From the NCBI RefSeq assembly GCF_019977755.1, contig NZ_AP025144.1, positions 558,001 through 622,000 on the forward strand: DNA of 64,000 nucleotides. The letters run 5' to 3'. Within the stretch, counting starts at the first letter, position 1, and every line of letters begins with the position of its first letter. Below are positions 30,018-48,638 of this stretch, piece after piece. Position numbers and translations under genes: made by a program. A model generated the notes under the pieces. That model made no database searches. It was not told where the DNA came from and saw nothing but the letters and a program-made list of their open reading frames with translations. The stretch comes from Vibrio penaeicida. GTDB taxonomy: Bacteria; Pseudomonadota; Gammaproteobacteria; Enterobacterales; Vibrionaceae.

Positions 30018-30225
30018 GTTTTCCCTACAACCATCATCAGCAATGTTGAAAGATGGGTATTATGCACTTATGTGATTAATACATGTGAATTGTGGATCAG
30101 TTATTGCCATATTTGCGAGCAACTAAAATATTTCAGGTAATTGATAACCAACTAATTTTCTTGAGTAGGGGGAGGTGGGGCATTACTCGGTAGCTGTTTG
30201 AAGAGAATTCAATGAGTGGGTGTTT

Positions 30226-30540
30226 TTGAGAATCTAAAACGACAAAAGATCGTTAAAATCGTAGCCTCTGAATAGTGGTATCGTGAGGCGGATTGATTGG
30301 ACAGGCATCCCTGACGCCACGCCGAATTTATTGAGATTCTAAAACAACGAAAGGTCGTTAAAATCGTGGCTTTTGAATAGTGGTATCGTGAGGCGGATTG
30401 ATTGGACAGGCATCCCTGACGCCACGCCGAATTTTTTGAGATTCTAAAACAACGAAAGGTCGTTAAAATCGTGGCTTTTGAATAGTGGTATCGTGAGGCG
30501 GATTGATTGGACAGGCATCCCTGACGTCACGCCGAATTTT
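30226..30540 (-). repeat. Three 105-bp tandem repeats derived from the tRNA-Leu 3' half
   Basis: Three direct copies start at 30226, 30331 and 30436, nearly identical, with a fourth partial copy (30541-30588) running into the tRNA-Leu 3' end. Read on the - strand each unit has TTCGGCGTGGCG, an about 18-base insertion, TCAATCCGCC and then CACGATACCA, which follows the tRNA variable arm, T-arm and CCA end of the neighbouring tRNA-Leu (TTCGGGCGTGGCG, TCAAGTCCGCC, CGGTACCA). After this comes AACGACCTTTCGTTGTTTT, a small terminator-like hairpin matching the tRNA terminator region. The layout resembles the tyrT (rtT) repeats of E. coli. Confidence 0.85.
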
Positions 30541-30557
30541 GAGATTCTAAAACGACG

Positions 30558-30582
30558 AAAGGTCGCTATAAAAGCGACCTTT
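30558..30582 (-). terminator. Native tRNA-Leu terminator (orphaned)
   Basis: AAAGGTCGCT and AGCGACCTTT pair around a short loop. On the - strand it follows the tRNA 3' half and is itself followed by CGTCGTTTTAG. It was probably the terminator of the intact tRNA-Leu gene before island insertion. Confidence 0.7.
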
Positions 30583-30588
30583 CTTTAT

Positions 30589-30644
30589 ATGGTACCGGTG
30601 GGCGGACTTGAACCGCCACGCCCGAAGGCAACGGATTTTGAATC
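30589..30644 (-). pseudogene. tRNA-Leu(CAA) 3' half, left copy (att of island 1)
   Basis: 56 bases identical to 40961-41016. On the - strand they run from the anticodon stem-loop (GATTCAAAATC) through variable arm and T-arm to an encoded CCA. The 5' half is missing here, so this copy cannot make a tRNA. It is the left attachment-site repeat of island 1. Confidence 0.92.
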
Positions 30645-33505: not shown

Positions 33506-33638
33506 AGATTGCTTACAAAGTGTCATAGGTTCTGAGCGCTGGTGGGAAAAGGCAACTAACCCTTCAACAGTTCAACGTGGTGACTTAATTTATGCATTTT
33601 TGCCGCACTGATCTGCTCCAGCAAGACTGGACACTTCA

Positions 33639-34492
33639 TTAAGCGACATTTTGCTGTTCAAAGTTAACTGGGCTTAGATACCCAAGAGCACTGTGCCTTC
33701 TCATCCGATTATAATCAACCTCAATGTACTCGAAGACCGTTTGGCGCATCTCATTTCTTGTCATGATCGGTTCGTATTGGATCGCCTCGACTTTCATAGA
33801 ATGGAAGAAGCTCTCAACACACGCATTATCCCAACAGTTTCCTTTTCTACTCATACTTTGTTTTAGGTTATAAGCACTTATTATGTCCCTATAGTCTTTT
33901 GAGCAATACTGGCTACCTCGATCACTATGGACAGTAACATGCTCAGGGAACCCTCGACGGAACAGAGCCATTGATAATGCATCGCAGACCAGAGTTGCCG
34001 TCATCCTCGTATCCATTGACCAACCGATCACTTGTCGTGAGTAAAGGTCGATGATGACAGCCAGATACAACCAGCCTTCGCTCGTGGCAAGATACGTGAT
34101 ATCTCCCGCCCATTTTTGATTCGGAGCCGTTGCGTTAAAGTCTTGAGCTAGCAAGTTCGGCGCTACGGGCATCTTATGCTTGCTATCCGTCGTACATTTA
34201 AACTTGCGTGCCGCTTTCGGCGTTAAATCCTGACGCTTCATACTGGCGGCAATGGTTTTAACATTACGGCTATCCCCATTCTCAGCTAGCTCTTTCTGGA
34301 TGCGCCTTGAGCCATCACGCCCCTTACTATTGTCAAAAGCTTTTTTGACTTTTTCATCAAGCTTTTGGCGTATTGCCTCACGCTGGATGTAGCCTTGTGG
34401 CGATGCTTAATCCAGTAATAGAACCCACTTCGTGAAACTTCGAACACCTTAGCCATGCGGACCACATTGAAACACAGAAGGTGTTCTAGCAT
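33639..34492 (-). pseudogene. IS3-family transposase orfB, frameshifted
   Basis: Compared with the intact copy (35491-36342), two extra bases at 34392-34393 shift the frame after KHRHK, about 35 codons from the start. The downstream part still encodes the rve integrase core with the DDE residues (WAGDITYLA, HSDRGSQY, NACVESF). This copy should not transpose on its own but could be moved by copy B. Confidence 0.9.
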
Positions 34493-34506
34493 AAATTCAT
34501 AGCAAT

Positions 34507-34794
34507 CTACTTTAGATTTTTCGCGAAGTAGGTGGCGGCCTTTTTTACGATATCTAGCTCTTCAGCTTGCTCAGCCAATTGCCTTTTGAGCTTGGCGACT
34601 TCGGCAGCGAGATCTCTTTCACGCTGACTGGTACTGGTGTCTTTTTTAATTGCCTTACGCCAACCGTAGATCTGGGATTCATGCAACCCGAGCTGCCTCG
34701 CTGCCGCAGCAACTCCCACTTTCTCTGATAGCTTCAAAGCTTCTGCCTTAAATTCAGGGGAATGTTTAATTCTAGTTTTTTTGTTAGTTGTCAT
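34507..34794 (-). CDS. IS3-family transposase orfA (copy A)
   Basis: 95-residue helix-turn-helix protein with a C-terminal leucine-zipper-like coiled coil, identical to orfA of copy B. The A-AAA-AAG slippery heptamer on the - strand is at 34546-34540 and would normally give the OrfAB fusion. Confidence 0.92.
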   Translation of the reverse strand: MTTNKKTRIKHSPEFKAEALKLSEKVGVAAAARQLGLHESQIYGWRKAIKKDTSTSQRERDLAAEVAKLKRQLAEQAEELDIVKKAATYFAKNLK

Positions 34795-35188
34795 TGTTCA
34801 CCTCGTTAGTGATTGTACTCACTTAACTTGGTGTCCAAAACTGCTGGGGCGGATCACACGTTGATCAGGTTCCATACGCTTTCTACCCAGTCGGCAGAGA
34901 AATTCCTACCGAACACTCTCGTGCATTAGTAAAAGTTGAGCCAATCAACATAAATGCCAAGCTTCATCAAGTTGATTTACCTGTTGCCGCAATGCCAAGG
35001 TTTGAGCATGAAGTCTGGGGCGCTTATAGAGCCAAACGACGCCCTTGTATTGTCTTAAGTGTTGAGTCCTCATTAGTCGACAAGTCTCTGACAAGAGGAA
35101 AAGCTAATCACTCAACATCACCTACATGATCCGCCCCAACAGTTTTGGACACCAAGTTAAGTGAGTACAATCACTAACGAGGTGAACA

Positions 35189-35476
35189 ATGACAACTAAC
35201 AAAAAAACTAGAATTAAACATTCCCCTGAATTTAAGGCAGAAGCTTTGAAGCTATCAGAGAAAGTGGGAGTTGCTGCGGCAGCGAGGCAGCTCGGGTTGC
35301 ATGAATCCCAGATCTACGGTTGGCGTAAGGCAATTAAAAAAGACACCAGTACCAGTCAGCGTGAAAGAGATCTCGCTGCCGAAGTCGCCAAGCTCAAAAG
35401 GCAATTGGCTGAGCAAGCTGAAGAGCTAGATATCGTAAAAAAGGCCGCCACCTACTTCGCGAAAAATCTAAAGTAG
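35189..35476 (+). CDS. IS3-family transposase orfA (copy B)
   Basis: 95 residues. An N-terminal HTH (EFKAEALKLSEKVGVAAAAR, then LGLHESQIYGWRKAI) binds the IS ends; a coiled coil follows. A slippery heptamer AAAAAAG at 35437-35443, in the A-AAA-AAG phase, allows a -1 ribosomal frameshift into orfB. Confidence 0.93.
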   Translation: MTTNKKTRIKHSPEFKAEALKLSEKVGVAAAARQLGLHESQIYGWRKAIKKDTSTSQRERDLAAEVAKLKRQLAEQAEELDIVKKAATYFAKNLK

Positions 35477-35490
35477 ATTGCTATGAATTT

Positions 35491-36342
35491 ATGCTAGAAC
35501 ACCTTCTGTGTTTCAATGTGGTCCGCATGGCTAAGGTGTTCGAAGTTTCACGAAGTGGGTTCTATTACTGGATTAAGCATCGCCACAAGTACATCCAGCG
35601 TGAGGCAATACGCCAAAAGCTTGATGAAAAAGTCAAAAAAGCTTTTGACAATAGTAAGGGGCGTGATGGCTCAAGGCGCATCCAGAAAGAGCTAGCTGAG
35701 AATGGGGATAGCCGTAATGTTAAAACCATTGCCGCCAGTATGAAGCGTCAGGATTTAACGCCGAAAGCGGCACGCAAGTTTAAATGTACGACGGATAGCA
35801 AGCATAAGATGCCCGTAGCGCCGAACTTGCTAGCTCAAGACTTTAACGCAACGGCTCCGAATCAAAAATGGGCGGGAGATATCACGTATCTTGCCACGAG
35901 CGAAGGCTGGTTGTATCTGGCTGTCATCATCGACCTTTACTCACGACAAGTGATCGGTTGGTCAATGGATACGAGGATGACGGCAACTCTGGTCTGCGAT
36001 GCATTATCAATGGCTCTGTTCCGTCGAGGGTTCCCTGAGCATGTTACTGTCCATAGTGATCGAGGTAGCCAGTATTGCTCAAAAGACTATAGGGACATAA
36101 TAAGTGCTTATAACCTAAAACAAAGTATGAGTAGAAAAGGAAACTGTTGGGATAATGCGTGTGTTGAGAGCTTCTTCCATTCTATGAAAGTCGAGGCGAT
36201 CCAATACGAACCGATCATGACAAGAAATGAGATGCGCCAAACGGTCTTCGAGTACATTGAGGTTGATTATAATCGGATGAGAAGGCACAGTGCTCTTGGG
36301 TATCTAAGCCCAGTTAACTTTGAACAGCAAAATGTCGCTTAA
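35491..36342 (+). CDS. IS3-family transposase orfB (copy B)
   Basis: 283 residues from the internal ATG; the real product is probably the OrfAB fusion made by -1 frameshifting at 35437-35443, since the orfB frame is open upstream through REKSKVDCYEF. HTH_21-like region, then rve integrase core with DDE residues in WAGDITYL, VHSDRGSQY and NACVESFF. IS3 family, IS3-like group; the exact IS name is not assigned. Confidence 0.93.
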   Translation: MLEHLLCFNVVRMAKVFEVSRSGFYYWIKHRHKYIQREAIRQKLDEKVKKAFDNSKGRDGSRRIQKELAENGDSRNVKTIAASMKRQDLTPKAARKFKCTTDSKHKMPVAPNLLAQDFNATAPNQKWAGDITYLATSEGWLYLAVIIDLYSRQVIGWSMDTRMTATLVCDALSMALFRRGFPEHVTVHSDRGSQYCSKDYRDIISAYNLKQSMSRKGNCWDNACVESFFHSMKVEAIQYEPIMTRNEMRQTVFEYIEVDYNRMRRHSALGYLSPVNFEQQNVA

Positions 36343-36701
36343 TGAAGTGTCCAGTCTTGCTGGAGCAGATCAACATACATAGTTGCACCATATTATGGTG
36401 TAAACACGGGCAAACGTTCTGGTTACACGAACTTATTTACTGAACGAGTTAGACATTGTGAATATTCGCAATTTCACTGGGATATGCTCCCGATTTCGGG
36501 AGCTACAGAATCAATATTACGTCTGGATCACCTGATGCCCATAGGTAATCACTACAAGTCTTACAAACATACTGGGTATAGGCTATCTAAAGAAGCTCTA
36601 GAAGTTATTGATGACCTACTAGTGTGGAACCTCAAAGGCGGTGTTCCACCAGACAGTATTATTATTACTTACAGAGAAATTATCGAAGATTGCTTCGTTG
36701 C

Positions 36702-37694
36702 TTAAAAAAGATGGTTATTTTCCCCTGAAGGTACTTCTTTTTCGTTAAAAGTGATATTACGAATTACATTACTAACTTCCTTCAAGTGCTCCCTATTTGG
36801 CAAAGGGAGCACCATATCTAATCTATCTTTAGAAACTTTTAGTAAGGACAGCTTCTCAGATGTATCACCATATAGAAGTACCATATTCGCAGCAATTTTC
36901 TCCTCTCTAAACTCCACATCTCTATTAGATTGACCAACTACAAGTAAGTAGCGACCATAATTTAGAATTGCTCTTGAGGCATGCAGACTACCGCCGGTCA
37001 GATCTGATTGAACTAAAACAACAGCTTTCGCCAAAGCAGCTTGAATCCGATCCCTCTCCACAAAGTTTGAGCGGCCGACATAAGAATTGTAACTATACTC
37101 ACTGACTAACAACCCACCTTTATCTGTAATATCACTAGCTAGCCTTTTGTTTTGAGCCGGATAAATTTTTTCCAGACCATGAGCTAACACAGCTATAGTT
37201 TTGCCTCTTGCCTCTAAACAAGATTCATGAGCAACAGTATCAATTCCTTTTGCTAAACCACTAGTCACACACCAGTTATTCTCAGAAAACCACTGGGTGA
37301 TTCTTTGAGCAATAGCCACCCCATGTTCTGTTGGAGATCTAGTCCCAATAATAGTAATTGAGTCAGATTTCAATATGCGCAGATCCCCTGCACAAAAAAG
37401 TATTGGTGGAGCATCGGGCAATTTTTTTAAGGAATCAGGGTATTGTTCATCGAGTCTACAGATAATCTTATGCCCCAATGACTCAGCTATCTTGATTTGC
37501 CCCGCCGCAAGTTCAAACGCTTGCTCCAACTGCTCTTTAGAAAACTTATCCGCCCCTATCTTACCTGCCGCAAAAGCCTCATCTACCGAAGTTCGAGATA
37601 ATTGAGCTGATATTGCTATATCATTCAAATACTTTCTTCCAACTCCTTTGAGGTATCTATACGCAAGTAGAGACTTAGCACTCTCGGATATCAT
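36702..37694 (-). CDS. shosA: ShosA-like DprA/SMF-domain protein
   Basis: 330 residues from the ATG at 37694, which overlaps the stop of the preceding gene as ATGA; an in-frame upstream ATG at 37724 is less likely. It has a DprA/SMF Rossmann (SLOG-type) domain: TIIGTRSPTEHG, SGLAKGIDTVAHE, KTIAVLAHGLEKIYPAQN, GLLVSEY and LTGGSLHASRAILNYGR. Coupling to a phosphoribosyltransferase gene, not to a chromosomal dprA context, points to the ShosTA toxin-antitoxin/antiphage system, in which the DprA-like protein is the antitoxin. The house-keeping dprA is a different gene, so this is not the competence protein. Confidence 0.8.
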   Translation of the reverse strand: MISESAKSLLAYRYLKGVGRKYLNDIAISAQLSRTSVDEAFAAGKIGADKFSKEQLEQAFELAAGQIKIAESLGHKIICRLDEQYPDSLKKLPDAPPILFCAGDLRILKSDSITIIGTRSPTEHGVAIAQRITQWFSENNWCVTSGLAKGIDTVAHESCLEARGKTIAVLAHGLEKIYPAQNKRLASDITDKGGLLVSEYSYNSYVGRSNFVERDRIQAALAKAVVLVQSDLTGGSLHASRAILNYGRYLLVVGQSNRDVEFREEKIAANMVLLYGDTSEKLSLLKVSKDRLDMVLPLPNREHLKEVSNVIRNITFNEKEVPSGENNHLF

Positions 37695-39154
37695 ACTTCT
37701 TCCAAATTCTCCGTATGTGTACATTGAGGTTTTTTAAAATAGCCTTTACACCCTAAAAAGTTAGTTTTGTCACTGTTACGCTGCTGTGTATACATCCCTT
37801 CTCCGCAACGTGGACAATCTTTAATAATAATTGACTCTACATGAGTACATTTATCGAACAACTCGAAAAAACCTGTACAGCCATAAAAATGTATCCCTGT
37901 TTTCTTATTTGTTCTAACTTGCATTAGTCTTGCGCACTTTGGACATTCGATAGCCTCTTCTCTCACACTCACTGTTTTTGCTAGACATGCTCCAAAAGTG
38001 TATGCAGCACCGGCATTTTCTAAAAGGCAGAATGCATGATTAAACGTAGCCCCAGTGGTAATTACGTCATCAAGTACCAATACTGTTTTTCCTTTAATAT
38101 CATCCAGATACTTTTCTTTGATGTGCAAGTTCATCATTAACTCAGCAGATCGATTATCCACTCCCCCGAGTGTTTTGAGACTTTTCGCTCCAGATGAAAA
38201 TTCAAACAAGTCAGGAATAAACTCCGAACGACCTTCGCAAGAGCTTTTAACTTTTCCAAGCATGTTCTCTAAACGTTTGTTTTTACCCTTCTTCGCTGGA
38301 ATTACTGTAACAATATCAAACTCTGCATTCGCATCCTCAAAGACATACTGTGGCAATCTGAATACTACTCTTGACATCAAATCAACGAAGTAGCCCGGTA
38401 TAACATAGCTCTCCGCTAACTCTTTCGCATAAATATCTTTTGATAGCTGGTGGTTCTCATGAAGTTGTGCTGTGAGCGTAGAGTTCTGGCTGAAATAACG
38501 CCCAAAAGCGACAAGCTTAATGTCTTCACGGTTTAATGGAACCAATTCGCCTTTAGTATTTAGAGGAATAAAGTTGAGTTGTTTTTTATAAAAATCGAAT
38601 GACCTTTCTTTAGCAGTTCTATCTGCAATCAAAGCCAACTCTTCGATACTTTCTATATTGTCCACAAGGTATTGTGACTTGGTAATTGTAGCTGGTATCT
38701 GAGCAATGGGAGTTCTTTTGGCCCATGCTGGAGCTACTGGCATTATCTTTGCCTTATAAGCGGCAATAAAATCAGTTTCTGCATCGCCCACATAGATAAC
38801 ATGGTCGTCTTCACATACACCTAATTTTTCCATTGCCAACTTAATGCCTATAGGAGATGGCTTGATTCCACCAGCTCCAACATCGTCGTAGCAGACAAGA
38901 GCATCAAATAAATCTATGTCATGGAAAGCCAATACCTTTTCTGCATACCACTTAGGCGAATTCGTCACTAAACCTAGTGGGATACCTGCTTCTTTCAAAT
39001 CTCTCAACATCTTGGAAACAGGCTCATAAATCTTTGTCTTGTATAAATTTGCATCTAAACCAGCTACGTCTTTAGTTCGACGGAACTCCTCAACTTTCGA
39101 AGTACCAACTAATGTGTCATCAAGATCGAAAATAATCGCATCAACCTTAGCCAT
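37691..39154 (-). CDS. shosT: ShosT-like HAD-phosphoribosyltransferase protein
   Basis: 487 residues with three parts. Residues 1-170 are a HAD hydrolase (DLDDT nucleophile motif, VTNS, KPSP and GDAETD motifs). Residues about 225-400 are a type I phosphoribosyltransferase with PRPP loop VLVLDDVITTGAT. The C-terminus has two topoisomerase-type C4 zinc ribbons (CPKC...GC, CPRC...GC). PRTase plus DprA pairs are the hallmark of ShosTA, where the PRTase is the toxin. The HAD domain may act on the nucleotide product; this is inference. An own promoter appears to lie at 39192-39218. Confidence 0.8.
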   Translation of the reverse strand: MAKVDAIIFDLDDTLVGTSKVEEFRRTKDVAGLDANLYKTKIYEPVSKMLRDLKEAGIPLGLVTNSPKWYAEKVLAFHDIDLFDALVCYDDVGAGGIKPSPIGIKLAMEKLGVCEDDHVIYVGDAETDFIAAYKAKIMPVAPAWAKRTPIAQIPATITKSQYLVDNIESIEELALIADRTAKERSFDFYKKQLNFIPLNTKGELVPLNREDIKLVAFGRYFSQNSTLTAQLHENHQLSKDIYAKELAESYVIPGYFVDLMSRVVFRLPQYVFEDANAEFDIVTVIPAKKGKNKRLENMLGKVKSSCEGRSEFIPDLFEFSSGAKSLKTLGGVDNRSAELMMNLHIKEKYLDDIKGKTVLVLDDVITTGATFNHAFCLLENAGAAYTFGACLAKTVSVREEAIECPKCARLMQVRTNKKTGIHFYGCTGFFELFDKCTHVESIIIKDCPRCGEGMYTQQRNSDKTNFLGCKGYFKKPQCTHTENLEEV

Positions 39155-39289: not shown

Positions 39290-39862
39290 TCACCTCTTAA
39301 GTTCGCGGTAACTATCAATATTCAATAAGACACTTCTATAATCTTGCCTTTCAAAATACTCACCTGCTAACTCGATCATTTTGTTCCAAATTGGCTCATC
39401 ACAAATTTCTCGCCCTTTCGTAAACTTAATGCTTGAGCTAACTAACCTTATAGAAACCCCAAGCAGTTCAGCGATTTCTACTTGTTTTGCACCAGCTTCC
39501 CAAGTGACCCTCATAGCCCAAGAACGCCAACGCATGTCTTCAAATTCAAGGGGGACTTGCCCTTTACCCACCTCAAATATAGACCCACCATTGGCAAAAT
39601 TAGACAAATTACCAACAACGAAATCCCAAACGTGCTTGTCCATATCATCGCGAAACTCTACCTGTTCTAGAAATTTAGAAACCAAAAGCATCGCTTGTTT
39701 TTTTGATGACGCACGAATTGGGGCTTGTGTTTTATCGAACTGTGAGCATGAATAGTCCTGTCCAAAGGACAACCACTTGATCATTTCATCAGCATCTAGG
39801 TCATGTAAATAATCAGGTAGCTCTACATCTTCCACTAGAAATTTCTCCCATGAAATCATCAA
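39290..39862 (-). CDS. HTH-type protein overlapping the integrase gene, unknown
   Basis: 190 residues, not recognised. A sigma-like or resolvase-like helix-turn-helix is visible near residues 128-150 (KQVEIAELLGVSIRLVSSSI). The 5' end overlaps the 3' end of the integrase gene by 50 bases, so it is cotranscribed with int. It could regulate the island (excision or cargo), but there is no direct evidence. Confidence 0.65.
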   Translation of the reverse strand: MMISWEKFLVEDVELPDYLHDLDADEMIKWLSFGQDYSCSQFDKTQAPIRASSKKQAMLLVSKFLEQVEFRDDMDKHVWDFVVGNLSNFANGGSIFEVGKGQVPLEFEDMRWRSWAMRVTWEAGAKQVEIAELLGVSIRLVSSSIKFTKGREICDEPIWNKMIELAGEYFERQDYRSVLLNIDSYRELKR

Positions 39863-40844
39863 TTAGTTTGTGCTTTTGACTGACACAAAGGTGGGCATAC
39901 CGCTGAGTCATTTGTATAGATTTATGTCCTAAAACTTCAGCAATCTGGATTAATGAAGCTCCATTCTTAGCAAGGATAGAAGCTGCTGTATGGCGTAAAT
40001 CATGAAATCGACAATCTTTGATTCCAGCCATTGAGATAGCCCTATACCAATGGATATCAAAGTTACGAAAGTAGTCATGCTGGTGACCTACTCTAGGAAA
40101 TACGTAATCTGCACTAGCACTTTGAAAACGAGATAGTTCGGCAACCACGTTGTCAGTTAGAGGTAGGATTCTCGGCTCCCCATTTTTTGTTTTTTTTACT
40201 AAAGCACGTCTATCTCGAATACTGATATCACTCCAACGTAGAGTTAAGATCTCTGTTCTTCGAGCGCCGGTAGTTATAGCCATCAACAAAAGCAGGTATA
40301 AACGGTCCCAACTAGAATCTTTAGCTATGCTTAGCAATCGCTCGACTTCCTTTTCTGTTAAAAACCGCGTCCGAGCATTGTTCTCTTTAAGCTGCTTTAC
40401 TTCCCTCGCAGGGTTGTGTGTACTGTCATATTCATCTGATAGGAATGCGTATACAGCACTTAGAGCTGCCTTATATCGATTAACTGTTGCGGGGGCCTTC
40501 CCTTCTTCAGACAGAGCTTTTAGAGCGGTTCTCACACATGACTTAGTAACTTGCCCAGTTTTCTTGCTGCCATAAAGTGAACACCACCAGTTTAATCGTT
40601 GCCCTATAGATTGGTCTTTACCTGTGTGGTAGCGGAGATACTCTTTACATGCCTCATCCAACGTCAAGTTAGACATTGCGTAGCTTGTTAGTAGGTTGGT
40701 TAGATCATCGTTAGTCAAAAGCTGTGCATGAAACTGCTCTGCTTCTTTCTTCTTGGTGAATACCTTGGAGATACGTTTACCATTGCGCATAATTTGCACT
40801 CGGTATCGTACGCCAGACTTTCTTTGAATTTTCTGGATTGCCAT
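39813..40844 (-). CDS. Tyrosine recombinase, integrase of island 1
   Basis: 343 residues. N-terminal arm-binding-like region (YRVQIMRNGKRISKVFTKKKEAEQF), SAM-like core-binding domain, and the catalytic domain with Arg in TGARRTEIL, HxLR-H in HDLRHTAAS, His/Lys in LGHKS and the Tyr nucleophile in MTQRYAHL. It sits 117 bases from the right attachment repeat, as integrases of tRNA-targeting islands do. A TTACACAC site is in that gap. Confidence 0.95.
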   Translation of the reverse strand: MAIQKIQRKSGVRYRVQIMRNGKRISKVFTKKKEAEQFHAQLLTNDDLTNLLTSYAMSNLTLDEACKEYLRYHTGKDQSIGQRLNWWCSLYGSKKTGQVTKSCVRTALKALSEEGKAPATVNRYKAALSAVYAFLSDEYDSTHNPAREVKQLKENNARTRFLTEKEVERLLSIAKDSSWDRLYLLLLMAITTGARRTEILTLRWSDISIRDRRALVKKTKNGEPRILPLTDNVVAELSRFQSASADYVFPRVGHQHDYFRNFDIHWYRAISMAGIKDCRFHDLRHTAASILAKNGASLIQIAEVLGHKSIQMTQRYAHLCVSQKHKLIDDFMGEISSGRCRAT

Positions 40845-40960: not shown

Positions 40961-41016
40961 ATGGTACCGGTGGGCGGACTTGAACCGCCACGCCCGAAGG
41001 CAACGGATTTTGAATC
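40961..41016 (-). pseudogene. tRNA-Leu(CAA) 3' half, right copy
   Basis: Identical to 30589-30644. Joined to the 5' half at 48538-48578 it would give a full 85-base tRNA-Leu(CAA) with paired acceptor (GCCGGTG with CACCGGT, G-U at the end pair). Island 2 now separates the two halves by 7.5 kb, so no tRNA is made here. Confidence 0.92.
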
Positions 41017-41076
41017 GGTTCTCTATTGATTTTTAATTTACTTTTTCAACAGCTTAACCTAAATTAACCCTATTCT

Positions 41077-41098
41077 TATACAAGTTTTTATACAACTT
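41077..41098. repeat. ATACAA arm-type repeats, island 2 left end
   Basis: ATACAAG and ATACAAC follow each other with a TTTTT between them, just upstream of the integrase start. The same motif occurs twice near the right end (48443-48462). These pairs at both ends look like recombinase arm sites. Confidence 0.5.
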
Positions 41099-41110
41099 TA
41101 AGGGGTTTTT

Positions 41111-42469
41111 ATGTATGAGAGTCTAACAAAAGGCTTGGCAATTTACAGGCAAAATCATACTAAAAGTATCTATGTTCGACTAAGAGCCAATGGAATGGAA
41201 ATCAAGCGTTCTTTAAAGACCTCTGACATAGATGAAGCTAAAAGCAGAGCTTGGGCTTTAAAGTTTGAAACAGAGGGAAAGATCACCGCTGGGATTCCAC
41301 TATATGAAACAAAAGAGCTATCAATTAAGAAAGCCTTTGATATGGTCATTGCCGACTTGAACAATAAAAGAGTTCAACGCCCTACTTATAAAGACTACTG
41401 TTATGTCATTCAAAACTTCATCGTTCCATACTTCAAAAGAAAAACGATCTCAGAACTTACAACAAAAAATATTCGTCAATACTTTGAAAGTCTAGAACTT
41501 TCAGAAACACGATACAACATAAATAAAACTTGTTTTACTCGATTGCTTGATCTTCTTGAAGAAGAAGAGATTTTAAAAAGGTCAGATTTTCCAAGACTTC
41601 CAAAAAAAATCACAACTAAAAAAGCTGATGATAGAAATCCATTTGCACCAGATGATCTAGATATAATCCTTAAAGAATTAAAAGTATTCCATCAATCAGG
41701 CGCAAGAAACAAAATATCAATCGCTCATAAAAAAACACTATACCAATACTTTATTTTTCTTTTAGAAACTGGTGTTCGCACAGGTGAAGAAGTTTTCCAT
41801 TTAAAATTTAGTGATATTAAAAAAGGAAAAGAAAATCATTATGTTTATATTACCAAAGGAAAAACTGAAGAATATAATGGAAATGGTCGCAGAATCGCAT
41901 TAAGTGAAAAAGCTTTAAATGCAATAATTGAAATAGCAAAGATTCAAAACCCAGACAAAAAGATTACTGAAAAGAACTTTTTAAACATTGATAGATTAAT
42001 ATTAGAAAATGCAAATAATAAAATCCCTTGCTATTCAACTCTTTTTGGTAGTTTCAAAAAACATCTGCTCAAAAAAGGAATCGAGTTTAGAAATAAAAAT
42101 TATGTTCTTTATTCTTGCCGACACTCATTTATTACTACCAGATTAGCGTTAGGCGTTGATATCTATCTAGTGTCAAAATACGTTGGTAGTCGAGTTGAGA
42201 CAATCCAAGAATTCTATGATGATTATAGACTAAACAATCAACAGCATATTGACCAAATCACGCTAAGAGATCGAAATAAAGAGCGTTGGGACGAGTATCA
42301 CCGCATAATGGAAGAACAGAAGAAACTAGGAGTTAAAGTAGATGACGATATGCCTAACTTCTTAACAGAAGAAGAAGAGGAAGAACGTATCAGGCTTCAA
42401 GTTGAAGCGTATAATCTATCTCACCCACCAGAAAATGATGTGCCACCCCAACCGCCAGAAGAATGGTAG
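41111..42469 (+). CDS. Tyrosine recombinase, integrase of island 2
   Basis: 452 residues. N-terminal arm-binding-like part (YVRLRANGMEIKRSLKTSD), core-binding domain, and catalytic residues Arg in TGVRTGEEV, Arg-His in YSCRHSFITTR and Tyr in IQEFYDDY. The first His of the HxxR box is replaced by Tyr, a known variant in this wider family. A long acidic, Pro-rich C-terminal tail follows the catalytic Tyr. It lies 94 bases from the left core and is unrelated in detail to the island 1 integrase. Confidence 0.93.
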   Translation: MYESLTKGLAIYRQNHTKSIYVRLRANGMEIKRSLKTSDIDEAKSRAWALKFETEGKITAGIPLYETKELSIKKAFDMVIADLNNKRVQRPTYKDYCYVIQNFIVPYFKRKTISELTTKNIRQYFESLELSETRYNINKTCFTRLLDLLEEEEILKRSDFPRLPKKITTKKADDRNPFAPDDLDIILKELKVFHQSGARNKISIAHKKTLYQYFIFLLETGVRTGEEVFHLKFSDIKKGKENHYVYITKGKTEEYNGNGRRIALSEKALNAIIEIAKIQNPDKKITEKNFLNIDRLILENANNKIPCYSTLFGSFKKHLLKKGIEFRNKNYVLYSCRHSFITTRLALGVDIYLVSKYVGSRVETIQEFYDDYRLNNQQHIDQITLRDRNKERWDEYHRIMEEQKKLGVKVDDDMPNFLTEEEEEERIRLQVEAYNLSHPPENDVPPQPPEEW

Positions 42470-42475
42470 ACAAAA

Positions 42476-42512
42476 AGAAAGAGAAGATAAAAAACCATCT
42501 TCTCTTTCTTTT
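42476..42512. terminator. Terminator after the island 2 integrase
   Basis: AAAGAAAGAGAAGAT and ATCTTCTCTTTCTTT form a long perfect stem around an eight-base loop, followed by T-runs; it can serve both the integrase and the convergent 133-residue gene. Confidence 0.85.
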
Positions 42513-42535
42513 CGCCAGAATTTCAATTAACACCA

Positions 42536-42937
42536 TCAGTTTCTTACTTTTTTATTGTTAATGGTGTTCATATTTTTTATTTTTATAGATATAGCACTTT
42601 CTAGCTTATCAGCTTCGATTGGATTGTATTTTCTTAATTTTGATATAGCTAGTTTAACAATTTCAAGCCAAGATAACGTTTGTACATCATTAGATTTCGT
42701 ACTTTCTCTTAACTCATTTAACAGCTCTTGTTTTTCATCAATAAAACTATCAAGAGAAGTTTTCTTATTTGGATTAAACTTTTCAAAAACCCCTTTTTTA
42801 ACTATTGCTTTATTCAATTTTTCATTTGTATTTTCAAGCTCATTAGAAACATCATTTGATATTTCATTTTGTGTTTTTGCTTTTTCAACTGCCTTTTTTG
42901 CTGCATCTAAGTGTTTTTTATCTTTGTCCTTTTTCAT
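42536..42937 (-). CDS. Lys-rich coiled-coil protein, possible mobilization accessory
   Basis: 133 residues, highly charged and mostly helical (DAAKKAVEKAKTQNEISND...). Not recognised. It is the second gene of a two-gene operon (stop/start TAATG with the 47-residue gene) divergent from the MobV-like relaxase, the usual place of a MobC-type accessory protein; that role is inference from position. Confidence 0.6.
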   Translation of the reverse strand: MKKDKDKKHLDAAKKAVEKAKTQNEISNDVSNELENTNEKLNKAIVKKGVFEKFNPNKKTSLDSFIDEKQELLNELRESTKSNDVQTLSWLEIVKLAISKLRKYNPIEADKLESAISIKIKNMNTINNKKVRN

Positions 42938-43080
42938 TATTCAGGACTCCAATTTAAATCACTAAAAGTTTCGTCAATTTCTTCTTGTTCTCGACAGAGT
43001 CTACATAATTCCCTCCCTCGCTCTATGTCATTCCCACACATTCCACACGTATCTAAACCATCATCATAGTTATTCATCAT
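42937..43080 (-). CDS. 47-residue zinc-ribbon-like protein
   Basis: A short gene not seen at usual length cut-offs. The product has two CxxC pairs (TCGMCG and LCRLC, about 14 residues apart), as in a small zinc ribbon, and an acidic tail. AAAGGA precedes the ATG at good spacing, and its stop overlaps the next start as TAATG, so it is probably translated. Role unknown; DNA binding near the relaxase origin is possible. Confidence 0.65.
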   Translation of the reverse strand: MMNNYDDGLDTCGMCGNDIERGRELCRLCREQEEIDETFSDLNWSPE

Positions 43081-43340
43081 TTATTTTCCTTTCTATTATT
43101 TTACAATTCAACAAGGTGTTACACCTTAATTTGTCATACCACACTTTTGACATATTTCAATAGCGTGATAACAATTAAAAAGGTAAGAGACTTAAAAGTC
43201 GCTTACTAATAAAAACCCTTTTTAGTCTCCCCGCCACTTTTTCTTGCTACGCTGCGAATAAAGTGTCGTGTAGAAAAGGGTAAACTTTAAAAAAGTTTAA
43301 TCAAATATGGATAACCAACAAGCCAAAAGGAAAAATAAAA
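43081..43340. promoter_or_regulatory. Divergent mob region with inverted repeats, candidate oriT
   Basis: This gap between two divergent operons holds a perfect palindrome AAGGTGTTACACCTT (43113-43127), an imperfect 11-bp inverted repeat at 43183-43206 (GTAAGAGACTT / AAGTCGCTTAC), and a CACTTT...AAAGTG pair around 43231-43267. Such nested repeats beside a relaxase gene are typical of an origin of transfer and of divergent promoters. The nick site cannot be placed from sequence alone. Confidence 0.5.
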
Positions 43341-45044
43341 ATGGAAACATCAACAGTATTATTTAAAACAAAAAGATATCGTATTTGTGATAAAACAAAA
43401 TTAGCTAATTTAGTTAATCACATATTACGAAACTATAAACCTGACACGATACAATATAAAAGAGACTTTAACGCTGACGATACAAAACTAAATTTAGTTA
43501 TCGGTCCAGACTTTAAAGTTATAAAAAAAGGTGCTGACTGGTTTGATAAAGTTCAAACTGAAAGCCAATCATTAAAAGACACGCTTCAACAATCATTAAT
43601 TGAAGCTGATGAAATGGCTGAACAAAATATTTCATTATCACGACAACAAAAAGATATTACTTTAAAATCTATAACGTATTTTTCAAAATTAAAAAATTAC
43701 GATGAAAACGCTGAAAGTCATTTATTAGAAATCATGACGCAGTGTTTAGAAGTAAAAAACCAAAGTAAAAATAAAAAAGATTATTCTGTTATCGATCAAG
43801 AATCTTTAAAAACTGCATTAGACTTTTATCAAAATCCCCCAGAGAATTTTAAAATAAAAGGGCTTAATGCCAAGAAAAAGCATTTAACCCAGATACTCGA
43901 AACAGTCGATAAAATGCAAGTCCATAATGATCGCAGAACTACCGCTTCAACTCGTTCAATAGGTTTTGAAGATGTGCTGTTCAAAATCCCAAAGCATAAC
44001 GACAAGAGCCTAAAAGACGTTGATATGATCAAGATTATGAGGGATTGGAACAACAAGTATTTTGCAGATTTTGCCATTCTTGGCGGTGCTTTCCACAAAG
44101 ACGAAAGAACGAAGAAAGGCAATGCAGCAGATGACCATCTTCACTTAATCAGATCAGGCTTTAATCGCTTTACAAAGCGTTTTGATTTGCCTGACTATAC
44201 TCATCAGCTTGGTTTGAGATTAGCGCAGGAGCAAGGCATACCGTTCGAGCCTGACGGTAAGAAATACAACGAAACAAACGAAATTTTAAGAACGGTAGCG
44301 AGTGAAGCACTTCAAACAGAGTTCTATGAATTTGCAAATAAAAAATTGGCTAAATATGGCTATGAGTTCAGATTTGAAAAAAAGGAACTTACACCAGAAG
44401 AAAAGGAATTAAGAGCTTTTTTAAAAGAACAAAGCAATTTACCAAAATCCCAGAGAATGCAAAATCTTCATTCTTATATGGAAGAACAAGCTAAAAAAGA
44501 ACAACAAAACAGAAATAAACAAATCAAAGCTGCTAATAAAGCTATTGCAAAGAAAAAAGCTGTTGATACTGAAATTACAACTAAAAATGTAGAATTAGAA
44601 GAAATAAATGAAAATATAAATTCTTCAACTGATAAATTAGATAAGGTTAATGAGCAATTAGAAAACAATCAAAAATGGCTTTATAACATAATAAAATCTA
44701 ACGCAGTTCAAAAAAGAATTGAAATGATAAGAGAATTAACAAATCATTCTATGGAGTTTTATAAGTCAGTTAAAAGGTTTATTAAAGGGATTAATCAACA
44801 AAATGAGGAATATATACAAGATTTAGAAAAAGAAAATCCTGAATGGTATAAACAAGAGAAAACAAGATTAAAACTTGAAGAAGAGCTAAAACAAGAAAGA
44901 ATTAAAAATAGACATTATGGAAATGAATATATTGAAGAAGTAAGAAAAGAAATAAAGGAAGAGTCAAGACTGGAAATAATATTTGATGATAAACCCAAAC
45001 AGAAGAAAAATAAAAGATTTAGTTTTGGGAAAAGTAAAAGCTGA
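43341..45044 (+). CDS. MobV/Pre-like relaxase (putative)
   Basis: 567 residues. The centre has AILGGAFHKDERTKKGNAADDHLHLIR near residues 248-275 (HKDE then DHLHLI), which follows the HxDE...PHxH metal-binding pattern of MobV/Pre plasmid mobilization relaxases, with a short insertion. The C-terminal 200 residues are a Lys/Glu-rich coiled coil, as in that family. It would nick oriT and allow transfer by a helper conjugation system. Family assignment is by motif only. Confidence 0.6.
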   Translation: METSTVLFKTKRYRICDKTKLANLVNHILRNYKPDTIQYKRDFNADDTKLNLVIGPDFKVIKKGADWFDKVQTESQSLKDTLQQSLIEADEMAEQNISLSRQQKDITLKSITYFSKLKNYDENAESHLLEIMTQCLEVKNQSKNKKDYSVIDQESLKTALDFYQNPPENFKIKGLNAKKKHLTQILETVDKMQVHNDRRTTASTRSIGFEDVLFKIPKHNDKSLKDVDMIKIMRDWNNKYFADFAILGGAFHKDERTKKGNAADDHLHLIRSGFNRFTKRFDLPDYTHQLGLRLAQEQGIPFEPDGKKYNETNEILRTVASEALQTEFYEFANKKLAKYGYEFRFEKKELTPEEKELRAFLKEQSNLPKSQRMQNLHSYMEEQAKKEQQNRNKQIKAANKAIAKKKAVDTEITTKNVELEEINENINSSTDKLDKVNEQLENNQKWLYNIIKSNAVQKRIEMIRELTNHSMEFYKSVKRFIKGINQQNEEYIQDLEKENPEWYKQEKTRLKLEEELKQERIKNRHYGNEYIEEVRKEIKEESRLEIIFDDKPKQKKNKRFSFGKSKS

Positions 45045-45048
45045 TATA

Positions 45049-45789
45049 TCAGCTTTTAATAGAGCTATCAATTATTTCATCAAAATCAAAATCATCAACA
45101 GAAAATATTTCATCTATATAGTCATCACTTAAAACATTAGTTACTTTTTTATTATCAGAATATAAGCTTGTTTTACTATAAAAGAACTTATAATGTTCTT
45201 CTTCTCTTTTTTCATTTTGATTTTTTGGATGTTTATACTCAAACTCAACTTCAATATTTTTAAATGCTTTCTTTATTTTTGCAATTCTATTGTCTCTTCT
45301 TTTAATCCCATTAAGATCTAAAACTTTACATAAATAGTAGTAGTCAAAATATCCCTCTTTTTTTATCTCCGTAAGAACTGATAATTTTGAAGATCGAATG
45401 TCAGCAATAGATTTCAAATCAATTAGATTAATCTTTTCAAATCCATTATTTCTTAAATCATTTTTATATTTACTTGAAAGTTTGAAATGTATTTCATTCG
45501 CTATAACTTCAATATTATCAAAGAATGGACTTTGTAATTTATTAACAAATATTATTATTTTCTTTGCTGTCATATTATTTCTAGTAATAATACTATTTTC
45601 ACCAAGAAACCCTTTCACAGAAAAGTAATGTTCGCTTTCTTTTTTTGTTGTTCTATAAATCATAGTTGAGTATGCGAGTATTGTAACAAATAATTTAAAC
45701 TCAACATTGTTTTTAAAATCAAATAATGCGTAATGTAAAGGGTTTTTTCTATTCATAATTTCGTTTGGTATGGTTAGATATTCAATCAT
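45049..45789 (-). CDS. Plasmid replication initiator-like protein (Rep_3-like)
   Basis: 246 residues with two winged-helix-like halves. The segment DLKSIADIRSSKLSVLTEIKKEG...YYYLCKVLDLNGIKRRDNRIAKIKKAFKNIEVEFEY resembles the Rep_3/RepB pattern (surface for the helix LkSkyairLYe..., then a recognition helix and a final FxY). It starts about 210 bases from three 23-bp iterons, the natural binding sites of such initiators. The relaxase gene ends 4 bases before it on the other strand. Low-complexity acidic tail. Confidence 0.6.
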   Translation of the reverse strand: MIEYLTIPNEIMNRKNPLHYALFDFKNNVEFKLFVTILAYSTMIYRTTKKESEHYFSVKGFLGENSIITRNNMTAKKIIIFVNKLQSPFFDNIEVIANEIHFKLSSKYKNDLRNNGFEKINLIDLKSIADIRSSKLSVLTEIKKEGYFDYYYLCKVLDLNGIKRRDNRIAKIKKAFKNIEVEFEYKHPKNQNEKREEEHYKFFYSKTSLYSDNKKVTNVLSDDYIDEIFSVDDFDFDEIIDSSIKS

Positions 45790-45923
45790 TTATATTTCCT
45801 TTTTATAAGTTGTAGAACTTCCGAAATATTAATGATTATAATATTATTTCTAATGCAATATTGACTATTTTGCATTTGGATATATATTAAAAATTAATAC
45901 TTCTTGGCAGGGAAGTTTAATTT

Positions 45924-45954
45924 AAAAAGTCGCAATTTATATTGCGGCTTTTTT
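45924..45954 (+). terminator. Hairpin terminator between rep and iterons
   Basis: GTCGCAA and TTGCGGC pair around a six-base loop, followed by TTTTTTA on the + strand. It would stop + strand transcripts coming from the rep side before the iterons. Confidence 0.7.
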
Positions 45955-45998
45955 ATTTCTTAAATCTAGTAAATCACAATTCAATTCTTTGTCAAATT

Positions 45999-46065
45999 GT
46001 AACTAAGTATAGGGGGCAAAAGTAACTAAGCGTAGGGAGTAAATGTCACCAAGTGTAGTCCTATT
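45999..46065. repeat. Three 23-bp iterons
   Basis: GTAACTAAGTATAGGG (45999), GTAACTAAGCGTAGGG (46022) and GTCACCAAGTGTAG (46045) repeat at exactly 23-base steps, about two helical turns. This is the hallmark of theta-type plasmid origins bound by Rep_3-like initiators. Confidence 0.75.
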
Positions 46066-46343
46066 AATAAATTAATAATACAGACTTTATAATAAAGACT
46101 TTTTATATATGTGTAATTGGCATTGTTTTTATCTTTATGACGCAGTGGCGAAATATTCATTCTGATTTGCTAATGGAGCTTGCGGAATGAAGCGTTTAAA
46201 TATAAAAATTAAGGCAATTTTAAAAAAGTGTATCACTTAACATATCTAAACTAAATAAATGGCTAAAAATGGCATTCTCGATTATATAAACTGATATTAC
46301 TGCTTTATTAATCAAATCTTTGAACTATATTTTTTGCATACAT

Positions 46344-46372
46344 AAAAAAAAGCCCGATAATTCGAGCTTTAT
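46344..46372 (-). terminator. Terminator of the restriction-modification operon
   Basis: On the - strand AAAGCTCGAATTATCGGGCTTTTTTTT forms a stem with a run of eight T, about 45 bases after the methyltransferase stop. Confidence 0.8.
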
Positions 46373-46416
46373 TTAGTCAAAATGGATTTACAACTGATTT
46401 TTATTTGTTGTAAATA

Positions 46417-47355
46417 CTATGAAACCTTTTTTAAGGAAGTGGTTTTTAATATTGGTTCTAGTTTACGAGAAATTGCCCGAACAACTGGAACACACACACT
46501 ATTTCCAAATTGCTTGTAAGCTTGGACATCACTCACAACGATTTTATATGTATCAGGGAAACCTTGTAATCTAGCCGCTTCTCTAGGGGTGATTTTACGA
46601 GGGTTTTTATCTTCCCCTTGGTTTACTAATATCTCTGAACCATCTTTATAATATCGAGCTGATATAGTGTTTGTATGGGTTGAGTCGTGATCAACCATCC
46701 CATAACCAAAACCATTACCTTTTGTCTTATGTTCTCGTTTTCTTCTTTGATGCCCTTCCCAAAGACGATCCGAGATCGTATATTTCTCTGGCACATCATC
46801 TTGTAAAATGTCACCAACTCTTGTTTTTTCCATAGTTGGCTTAGGAAAATCAAAAGTTGCACCATTTTTCAAAGCAACAATATAGATGCGTTCTCTATTT
46901 TGAGGTCTACCAAAATCTTTAGCAGCTAGGATTTGGCTTGTTACTGTATAACCTAAATCTTCAAGAGTTTCTTTCATAACACGATAAGTTTTACCTTTGT
47001 CGTGTGTCTTTAGTCTTTTTACGTTCTCTAAAAGCACAACACTAGGCTGATGATGCTCTATGATCTTCGCTATGTAGAAAAACAGTGTTCCACGAGTATC
47101 ATCAAAACCTTTCTGTAACCCTGCTTGCGAAAATGGCTGACAAGGAAAACCTGCAAGTAACAAGTCAAACTTAGGGATTTCACTTGGTTCAATTAAAGTA
47201 ATATCGCCATTTGGTTCTTCACCAAAATTTGCTTGATATGTTTGCCTTGCAAACTTATCAATTTCAGAAGAAAAAACACACTCTCCACCAATTTCATCGA
47301 ATGGTAATCTGATACCACCAACGCCAGCGAATAGATCAATAAACTTAAAACTCAT
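46417..47355 (-). CDS. DNA cytosine-5 methyltransferase of island 2
   Basis: 312 residues with motif I DLFAGVGGIRLPF, catalytic Cys in GFPCQPFSQAG, LLENVKRL, QNRERIYIVAL, RLQGFP and FGNSVCVPVV. It is complete. Its ATG overlaps the endonuclease stop (TAATG), so it is translated after the nuclease. Partnering with an EcoRII-type nuclease suggests a CC(N/W)GG-like site; the exact site is not readable from the sequence. Confidence 0.92.
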   Translation of the reverse strand: MSFKFIDLFAGVGGIRLPFDEIGGECVFSSEIDKFARQTYQANFGEEPNGDITLIEPSEIPKFDLLLAGFPCQPFSQAGLQKGFDDTRGTLFFYIAKIIEHHQPSVVLLENVKRLKTHDKGKTYRVMKETLEDLGYTVTSQILAAKDFGRPQNRERIYIVALKNGATFDFPKPTMEKTRVGDILQDDVPEKYTISDRLWEGHQRRKREHKTKGNGFGYGMVDHDSTHTNTISARYYKDGSEILVNQGEDKNPRKITPREAARLQGFPDTYKIVVSDVQAYKQFGNSVCVPVVRAISRKLEPILKTTSLKKVS

Positions 47356-48239
47356 TACTTAGCCCAATACTCTAGATTCTGTGGGATTTCATCGAAGAAG
47401 TAATCCTCAAAGCTAACGACATTACGCTTCTTAACAAGCGTATCTTGTGCTTTAACATCCCTATAAACTACAAGTATTACATTATGATTTGCCATTTGTT
47501 CAACTTTACTTGAACTGATATCTTCATCAACAGTTAATAGGTAAATACTTGGCAAACCTGTTCTGTTAATTTCTTCAATAACTTCCTGCCAACGTTCACG
47601 AAGAGTTGTTTTCATCGTGCCGATAATGACTTTATCTCGTCTTTGCTCAAACGCTTCTAGGTTCGGTAAAAGGGAATCTACAATCTTACCTAGCTTCTTA
47701 GTCTGAAAGTTCTTTGAGCCTACTGTAGCCTGTGATTCGTAAGGGTAATCCAACACGTCATATAAACCATAAATTATCCCCTCAAAGACTTTACCCGCTC
47801 TTGAGCGCCTAGATTGAGTATTACTTAATGATAACCTGTAGATGTAAGGGTAAATTTGCCCTGCATAATCACCAAAAAAGCTTCTTAACTTCTCTTTTAT
47901 TTCTTCATCACTTTTTTGAAATATATCAAATAGATAATCAAACTTTTCTTCTGGAACAGTAAACTTTTCTGAAATATGCTTCAAAATAAAAGCGTTCATT
48001 TTAGCTTCTTGCTCAAGAAATGAGCGAAAGGCTTCCTCTCTTAATGTTCTTACAACACCAGAAACGTCTTTTTCATCTTTGAGAGCCTCCATCAAGTCAG
48101 AATGTTCTGCTAGGACTCTCTTAACCGTGTCTTTAGGAGGGAGAATAAACTCTTTTCTTGCTGCTTGAATGTAGCGATCAAAAGCTTTTTGCTCCTCGCT
48201 AGGAATCTCAGTTAGGAATGTTAAATCCTGCATATCCAA
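47355..48239 (-). CDS. EcoRII C-domain-like type II restriction endonuclease
   Basis: 294 residues. The segment SRRSRAGKVFEGIIYGLYD near residue 142 is the RSRAG.xxE signature of the EcoRII-C/PspGI/SsoII group (sites of the CCNGG/CCWGG type), followed by KIVDSLLPNL and IGTMKTTLRERW, which supply the Asp and Lys of the PD-(D/E)xK centre. The first about 110 residues are an effector-like helical part. It precedes its methyltransferase in one operon. A second start (MQDL) lies two codons downstream. Confidence 0.85.
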   Translation of the reverse strand: MDMQDLTFLTEIPSEEQKAFDRYIQAARKEFILPPKDTVKRVLAEHSDLMEALKDEKDVSGVVRTLREEAFRSFLEQEAKMNAFILKHISEKFTVPEEKFDYLFDIFQKSDEEIKEKLRSFFGDYAGQIYPYIYRLSLSNTQSRRSRAGKVFEGIIYGLYDVLDYPYESQATVGSKNFQTKKLGKIVDSLLPNLEAFEQRRDKVIIGTMKTTLRERWQEVIEEINRTGLPSIYLLTVDEDISSSKVEQMANHNVILVVYRDVKAQDTLVKKRNVVSFEDYFFDEIPQNLEYWAK

Positions 48240-48311
48240 CCCTATGGTTCAAAAACGGCCAACTATTATAAATTAGATAAATTTAAACTCAATCTAGAAA
48301 GCAATAGATAC

Positions 48312-48341
48312 AAAAAAAGCCGTTCCGAAGAACAGCTTTTC
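48312..48341 (-). terminator. Terminator of the island-borne tRNA-Leu
   Basis: On the - strand GAAAAGCTGTTC, a TTCG loop and GAACGGCTTTTTTT make a strong intrinsic terminator eight bases after the encoded CCA. Confidence 0.9.
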
Positions 48342-48349
48342 TTTAAATA

Positions 48350-48434
48350 TGGTAGCGGTAGCCAGACTCGAACTGGCACAGCTTTCGCCGGGGGATTTTG
48401 AATCCCCTGTGTCTACCAATTTCACCATACCGCC
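48350..48434 (-). tRNA. tRNA-Leu(CAA), complete, carried by island 2
   Basis: 85 bases with encoded CCA. Acceptor stem GGCGGTA pairs with TACCGCT (G-U at pair 1), anticodon stem GGGGA/TCCCC with loop TTCAAAA (anticodon CAA), long variable arm CGGCGAAAGCTGT, and T-arm GCCAG TTCGAGT CTGGC. It differs clearly from the split host tRNA-Leu (GCCGGTG acceptor), so it is not a copy of it. It lies 104 bases inside the island's right junction, in line with the host tRNA promoter at 48611-48638, and should replace the destroyed gene. Confidence 0.93.
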
Positions 48435-48442
48435 ATTGGTTT

Positions 48443-48462
48443 TTATACAACTCTATACAACT
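48443..48462. repeat. ATACAACT arm-type repeats, island 2 right end
   Basis: Two ATACAACT copies separated by CT lie between the island-borne tRNA and the right core. They match the pair at 41077-41098. Confidence 0.5.
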
Positions 48463-48537
48463 TTTTTAATAGAGTTAAAATCAATGTAAGACACTGATTT
48501 TAAGCCAGTTTATGATATAAAACGCATACAAGCAAGC

Positions 48538-48578
48538 GATTTTGAATCCGTCGTGTATACCAATTTCACCACACCGGC
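48538..48578 (-). pseudogene. tRNA-Leu(CAA) 5' half, host copy split by island 2
   Basis: On the - strand this begins GCCGGTGTGGTGAAATTGG and ends with the anticodon loop GATTCAAAATC. It is the exact missing part of the 3' halves at 40961-41016 and 30589-30644. Beyond the loop the sequence is island DNA that cannot complete the fold. Confidence 0.92.
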
Positions 48579-48610
48579 ATCTCTGGGCTATTGCCCTTTC
48601 GATGATTGGC

Positions 48611-48638
48611 ATTATACGGATGACTTAAGCGGGTGCAA
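48611..48638 (-). promoter_or_regulatory. Host tRNA-Leu promoter
   Basis: On the - strand TTGCAC (48638-48633), a 16-base spacer and TATAAT (48616-48611) lie 33 bases upstream of the tRNA 5' end. It is a near-consensus sigma-70 promoter and now points into island 2, toward the complete tRNA-Leu at 48434. Confidence 0.8.

Follow-up and report, generated by a model that had tools for sequence, protein, structure and literature searches.

A Vibrio penaeicida element that splits a host tRNA-Leu(CAA) gene and carries a complete tRNA with the same anticodon

The split tRNA-Leu(CAA) gene and the two islands

The 64-kb stretch of Vibrio penaeicida DNA analyzed here (the window) contains, according to ARAGORN, a single complete tRNA, a tRNA-Leu(CAA) scoring 53.7 bits against the Rfam tRNA model (Table 1). 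An 11-base core, GATTTTGAATC, which corresponds to the anticodon loop and inner stem of tRNA-Leu(CAA), has four exact matches in the window, at 30634, 41006, 48394 and 48538. The tRNA-Leu(CAA) gene of the host is interrupted within its anticodon loop by island 2 (about 41017-48537, approximately 7.5 kb), its 5′ half (48540-48578) and its 3′ half with the core (40962-41016) being separated by 7,532 bases. From the 5′ half, the tRNA sequence ends at the core and 105 bases then lead to the complete tRNA, which is carried in the same direction as the orphan 5′ half and shares 62 of 85 positions with the split host gene. Neither junction of island 2 continues as tRNA, and the 3′ half at the other end is likewise incomplete; conventional restoration by island 2 was therefore rejected. 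These data agree with the original prediction of a host gene split in the anticodon loop, with unrestored halves 7.5 kb apart and a complete, different tRNA-Leu(CAA) inside the element in the direction of the orphan promoter; only the distance, given as 104 bases, has to be corrected to 105. A pattern of one half followed by a complete tRNA (GATTCAAAA N126-156 GATTCAAAATC) matched once in the window and in none of 100 shuffles, so that a chance origin of this layout was also rejected.

The promoter of the 5′ half, which had been described as near-consensus, deserves this name for its perfect TATAAT (48616-48611) but not for its weak -35 box, TTGCAC, at a spacing of 16. In 16 of the 18 same-genus relatives searched, a tRNA-Leu(CAA) gene runs uninterrupted across the loop. 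A pattern search of the whole genome gave two CAA-type cores (those of the split and carried genes), three tRNA-Leu(UAA) and one match with two mismatches, which was judged to be due to chance; no further intact CAA copy, for which a check had been proposed, was found. A genome scan for the tRNA family yielded at least 105 tRNAs, from 150 scored of 442 candidates.

Table 1. Features of the split tRNA gene, island 2 and the adjoining part of island 1 (positions in the window).
Feature	Positions	Strand	Basis or remark
Host tRNA promoter, TTGCAC-16-TATAAT	48611..48638	(-)	TATAATGC -10 also before intact genes of relatives
Orphan 5′ half, host tRNA-Leu(CAA)	48538..48578	(-)	Includes 11-bp core, 48538-48548
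Attachment-site arm, 5′ half to carried tRNA	48435..48537	(-)	Two TTGTATA words inside
Carried complete tRNA-Leu(CAA)	48350..48434	(-)	ARAGORN, Rfam
Terminator-like hairpin 3′ of carried tRNA	48312..48343	(-)	
Restriction endonuclease, EcoRII-C domain	47355..48239	(-)	Pfam PF09019, E 3e-18; PADLOC REase_II
Cytosine-C5 DNA methyltransferase	46417..47355	(-)	Pfam PF00145, E 1e-108
Iteron-like direct repeats, 23 nt	45999..46067	(+)	Two by tool, third weaker copy by eye
246-aa protein, RepE/Pi initiator fold	45049..45789	(-)	Structure match
567-aa possible relaxase	43341..45044	(+)	No Pfam; Foldseek 4ht4, prob 0.99, E 0.046; weak
133-aa protein	42536..42937	(-)	No family match
Island 2 tyrosine integrase, 452 aa	41111..42469	(+)	Pfam PF00589, E 6e-9; alignment
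Orphan 3′ half, host tRNA-Leu(CAA)	40962..41016	(-)	Core 41006-41016
Island 1 integrase (conventional neighbor)	39813..40844	(-)	
Displaced tRNA 3′ half, far end of island 1	30590..30644	(-)	Core 30634-30644

The 246-aa protein of island 2 has the two-winged-helix fold of the plasmid initiators RepE and Pi (1rep, 2nra) over the whole length, and iteron-like repeats adjoin the gene, but the identity with these initiators is only about 10% and there was no Pfam match at E 0.01. The weak match of the 567-aa protein is to 4ht4, which we take to be the NES relaxase. Searches of PDB sequences with both proteins returned nothing convincing, and no conjugation genes, parA/parB or dnaB were matched among the six island 2 proteins scanned. 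Island 2 has the integrase (Pfam PF00589) expected of an integrative mobilizable element, and we regard it as a plasmid-like integrative element that may be mobilizable.

The integrase of island 1 adjoins the 3′ half at 40962, and an extra copy of the 3′ half is present at the far end of that island. Island 1 is of the restoring type: it supplied the 3′ half at 40962, with which the gene was rebuilt, and displaced the older one. It was this rebuilt gene that island 2 split later, and this two-step history is an addition to the original prediction. Also, a gene pair of island 1 (36702-39154) matched the ShosA/ShosT (PsyrTA-like) defence models. Inside the island, a transposase-type insertion was spotted by eye in two similar copies of opposite orientation (33601-36390), with 899 of 1,270 positions matching in an ungapped comparison, and a tandem array (30223-30565, period 105, 3.3 copies) adjoins the displaced 3′ half.

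Recurrence of the layout among relatives of the integrase

Relatives of the island 2 integrase were found in 10 of 227 genomes of the genus (E ≤ 1e-10), 12 of 329 of the family (1e-20) and 11 of 394 of the order (1e-30), the genome of the window being counted where it was searched and the sets overlapping. A class-wide search at E ≤ 1e-40 matched that genome only (1 of 369), at a stricter cut-off which several of the order-level matches would fail. Among the genomes of named species, the scan with the single integrase gave no relative and the scan with an alignment gave eight loci; annotated phage and plasmid records gave no match. The set of relatives amounts to 27 distinct genomes or contigs, our own included.

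All 16 Leu-targeting elements with both ends readable, that of the window included, present the split gene together with a replacement, and they span Vibrio, Marinomonas and two further families. Thus, the combination of integrase and full tRNA, which it had been proposed to look for in other genomes, is present there. Throughout the 16, the integrase adjoins the orphan 3′ half and points away from it, while the orphan 5′ half lies at the opposite end and is followed, after 99-195 bases, by a complete co-directional tRNA-Leu with the anticodon of the split gene; elements that split a UAA gene carry a UAA tRNA. The layout was read on one contig in 14 cases and across two contigs in the other two (G640, G377). 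An assembly error is scarcely conceivable, as the same arrangement recurs in 16 assemblies and the RDD gene flanking island 2 also lies near the 5′ half in seven other elements (at 1 kb or less in five, at 4-5 kb in two more).

It may be asked whether the carried tRNA is ordinary cargo or a codon-usage tRNA, the host surviving through wobble reading of UUG by tRNA-Leu(UAA). UUG is probably also read by tRNA-Leu(UAA), for which the genome has three genes, leuX is dispensable in E. coli, and both Marinomonas genomes keep a second intact host CAA gene, all of which would suit this explanation. However, in every one of the 16 elements the carried tRNA matches the anticodon of the split gene (UAA included), has the same orientation and lies 99-195 bases from the orphan 5′ half, a constancy that makes this explanation improbable.

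A search for the layout pattern that ignored the integrase gave 5 of the 394 order genomes, all five being among the 11 integrase-positive ones. This search missed G615, G624 and G640, each of which has the layout, and is thus not exhaustive. The pattern was absent from the 140 genomes of f9, a family that is probably Pasteurellaceae, and the 21 IMG/VR stretches that matched the half-plus-complete pattern contained no ARAGORN tRNA.

The relatives outside the 16 were diverse. In P. profundum and one IMG/VR sequence (L108), a Leu 3′ half adjoins the integrase and the contig ends. Sister integrases adjoin 3′ halves of tRNA-Ser(UGA) and tRNA-Phe: the tRNA-Ser gene of G133 (L086) appears conventionally rebuilt, so that the habit of replacement is not universal in the wider integrase family, whereas G003 and G014, with a tRNA-Ser(UGA) 3′ half, were not resolved at both ends, and G519 (L069) and G528 (L070), with a tRNA-Phe 3′ half, had no complete tRNA over 20 and 40 kb. 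Another contig of G519 (C57) also bears an integrase, together with a tRNA fragment. The G537 case is odd, no orphan 5′ half being seen, and no tRNA piece was seen adjoining the integrase in a Shewanella MAG, G285 and Novosphingobium. The Leu(CAA) rows are not united in a single clade of the integrase tree, whose well-supported branches require no fewer than three changes of this label.

Two elements carry more than a single plain tRNA. The V. intestinalis element (L055:8602-8932) splits a tRNA-Leu(UAA) located in a tRNA cluster and carries Leu(UAA), Gly(GCC) and Cys(GCA); a Cys tRNA that is located 3′ of the split host gene might lose its promoter. In M. alcarazii, the carried tRNA-Leu(CAA) contains a group I intron in the anticodon loop (L048:16485-16746; covariance model RF00028, 62.6 bits against a gathering threshold of 50). 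In G615, three or more copies of the orphan 3′ half with the element arm follow each other at intervals of about 653 bases (L099, oriented, ~24-1331), next to an element whose carried tRNA is exactly the host gene. A 79-kb plasmid of Dongshaea marina shows a tRNA-Leu-like match (L152:6001-6079) under which no gene is listed.

Short direct repeats are common to both ends of several elements. TTGTATA, present twice in the arm next to the carried tRNA, occurs twice more at the other end of island 2 (41077 and 41089) and is also shared by the ends in M. pollencensis; the corresponding word is TTTATAC in V. europaeus and TGCAAAG in four others. The longest shared end word was matched by at most 5 of 200 shuffles in the window element, M. 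pollencensis, G080, G615 and G624, and was equalled by 12 to 133 of 200 shuffles in the other 9 of the 14 elements tested. We infer that the shared end words may be arm sites of the integrase.

Expression, anticodon stem and loss of the carried tRNA

A TATAAT -10 box precedes the 5′ half in 13 of the 16 elements, and the promoter p values range from 0.00 to 0.09 over all 16. In the two elements from Marinomonas, the sequence is TTGACA-16-TAGAAT or TAAAAT instead, and V. intestinalis, whose split gene belongs to a cluster, has only TTGACC-16-TAAAGT. No terminator was found in the 16 gaps between 5′ half and carried tRNA, by a test that found one 3′ of only 10 of the 16 carried tRNAs and missed known ones, including the hairpin of the window itself, and that is consequently not sensitive; a separate listing of terminators in the window also gave none in the 48435-48537 gap. 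The carried tRNA could instead be driven solely by its own promoter in the attachment arm, the host promoter being uninvolved. This is what promoter-like sites at p ≤ 0.01 in the gaps of V. europaeus, V. ezurae and G128 would suggest, but there is none at this level in the other 13 gaps, and the gap of the window contains no convincing promoter (p 0.47) by the simple consensus score, itself a weak test. We regard this alternative as unlikely, and read-through from the host promoter into the carried tRNA as the best reading for island 2, and a plausible one, judging from the position of these signals.

Across the 16 elements, between 0 and 23 positions distinguish the carried tRNA from the split host gene. 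The anticodon stem of the carried tRNA is changed in 13 of the elements, and all five pairs are kept in 12 of these 13, the exception being the intron-bearing tRNA of M. alcarazii, which has a mismatch in its changed stem. The carried tRNA of G655 departs from its host gene at just two of 87 bases, which face each other in a single stem pair. The stem is unchanged in three elements of one genus (G606, G615, G377), two of which carry a tRNA identical to the host gene throughout. In the carried tRNAs, 99.3% of the cells were paired, and 53 two-sided changes were counted against a shuffled mean of 12.2, with 0 of 500 shuffles as high; the count used 12 sequences for 13 of the 16 elements (V. ezurae and G128 share one; M. 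alcarazii, G606 and G615 are not among them), and its shuffle control ignores the relatedness of the sequences. Such a high pairing together with two-sided changes indicates that the carried sequences behave as functional tRNAs.

The ACGGA/TCCGT stem is present in 88 of the 96 CAA tRNAs that were matched in a set of 95 Vibrio genomes. As a marker of elements, a variant stem holds for five of the eight exceptions, which lie in elements; one more is a copy on chromosome 2 of G128, and the last two belong to G161 and G012, where no element was visible in the surrounding DNA (40 kb and 3 kb, respectively). The G161 gene (L153:11045-11129), located about 4.5 kb from an RDD gene and provided with a TATAAT promoter-like site, is identical to the carried tRNA of V. 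europaeus at 80 of 85 positions, and may represent either a donor lineage or a domesticated copy. The G128 copy is a complete extra tRNA-Leu(CAA) (L130:9881-9965) among transposase-like genes, with no integrase in the 20 kb examined; as it stands behind the same kind of TTGTATA arm, it looks element-derived too.

The original prediction also held that the element would become hard to lose, like a tRNA-based addiction, unless excision rebuilds the host gene; the addiction would come from its being the sole source of a CAA tRNA. Indeed, in 12 of the 13 G-numbered genomes with CAA elements, that of the window included, no intact CAA tRNA was seen apart from the carried one (the exception being G128), a count in which some one-mismatch matches were judged by eye to be due to chance and from which more divergent tRNAs would escape. 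However, joining the two halves in the window yields a gene of 85 bases with the very sequence of the intact gene in two relatives (G004, G018); in three other relatives compared, the intact gene differs from it by substitutions. As the halves join to the exact host gene, a cell from which the integrase has cleanly excised the element should be normal and pay no price, and a cost on loss would arise only from random deletions that remove the carried tRNA. The addiction hypothesis did not withstand this comparison, and we consider it very improbable.

Proposed mechanism and relation to known elements

The interpretation that we favor, and hold to be likely, is that island 2 combines an integrase-split tRNA gene, a whole replacement of the same anticodon fed by the host promoter, clean excision and, possibly, immunity through the stem. 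The tyrosine integrase would recombine in the anticodon loop of tRNA-Leu(CAA), probably with the 7-base loop as overlap, leaving the two dead halves observed in the sequence. In place of a 3′ rebuilding piece, the element brings an entire tRNA-Leu with that anticodon, located next to one attachment arm on its inner side; the host promoter, which stays with the 5′ half, would have to read through some 100 bases to reach it. The host gene would be restored exactly on excision, and the excised circle could replicate by means of the RepE-like protein, as its fold suggests. Carried tRNAs mostly keep the loop and alter the stem pairs adjoining the crossover, a change which may hide them from the integrase of their own element; the three carried tRNAs that keep the host stem argue against this part. 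Stems recoded pair by pair, or split by a self-splicing intron, might further reflect a lineage-wide substitution of a host tRNA, or of a set of clustered tRNAs, by functional, element-owned versions that are targets neither of the element's own integrase nor of other elements using the same site, a reading that we put forward only tentatively.

The layout itself is not new, and the original prediction had overstated its novelty. The ICEPmu1/ICEMh1-like ICEs of Pasteurellaceae, larger elements of livestock pathogens, are described as combining a split tRNA gene with a replacement (PMC6028734, PMC6861422). The ICEMh1 repeat is GATTTTGAATC and its target a UUG tRNA; a further disrupted copy of the tRNA is reported upstream of the full-length one, and maintenance of the complete tRNA by the attL end is a speculation of that study (PMC6861422). 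Island 2 therefore has in common with these ICEs, as described there, the same core in tRNA-Leu(CAA), disruption at both ends and an intact tRNA-Leu inside one of them. In contrast, the ICEs measure 49-79 kb and possess conjugation genes, parA, parB, dnaB, resistance regions and XerD-family integrases of 30 and 36 kDa, whereas island 2 measures 7.5 kb and has a 452-aa integrase, a RepE-like gene and restriction-modification. ICEHin1056 and ICEApl1 also lie in a tRNA-Leu gene, that of tRNA-Leu(UAA) (PMC4908127). In the restoring tRNA-gene islands of the Islander definition, a carried fragment rebuilds the gene (PMC4383910); island 2 resembles them by its tyrosine integrase and a crossover inside the anticodon loop of a tRNA gene, but unlike them it has neither end rebuilt, island 1 being of the restoring kind.

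The available descriptions of the ICEPmu1/ICEMh1-like ICEs (PMC6028734, PMC6861422) contain no stem change, intron or multi-tRNA replacement. Altered stems or an intron in a carried tRNA were reported by no paper among the matches listed, most subscription papers lying outside this scope. Altered stems, intron and multi-tRNA replacement are thus the parts not found in print. Literature on the layout in Vibrio or Marinomonas was likewise absent among the matches listed, a scope outside which preprints and most subscription papers fell.

Our data provide a second setting in which a split tRNA gene is replaced instead of repaired, and replacement is the rule among the readable Leu-targeting relatives. 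Also, these elements offer natural pairs of target and replacement with which to test how an integrase reads the anticodon stem. Finally, a mobile element can supply the host's only CAA-anticodon decoder of UUG, and the tRNA inventory of these bacteria is thus partly a property of their elements.
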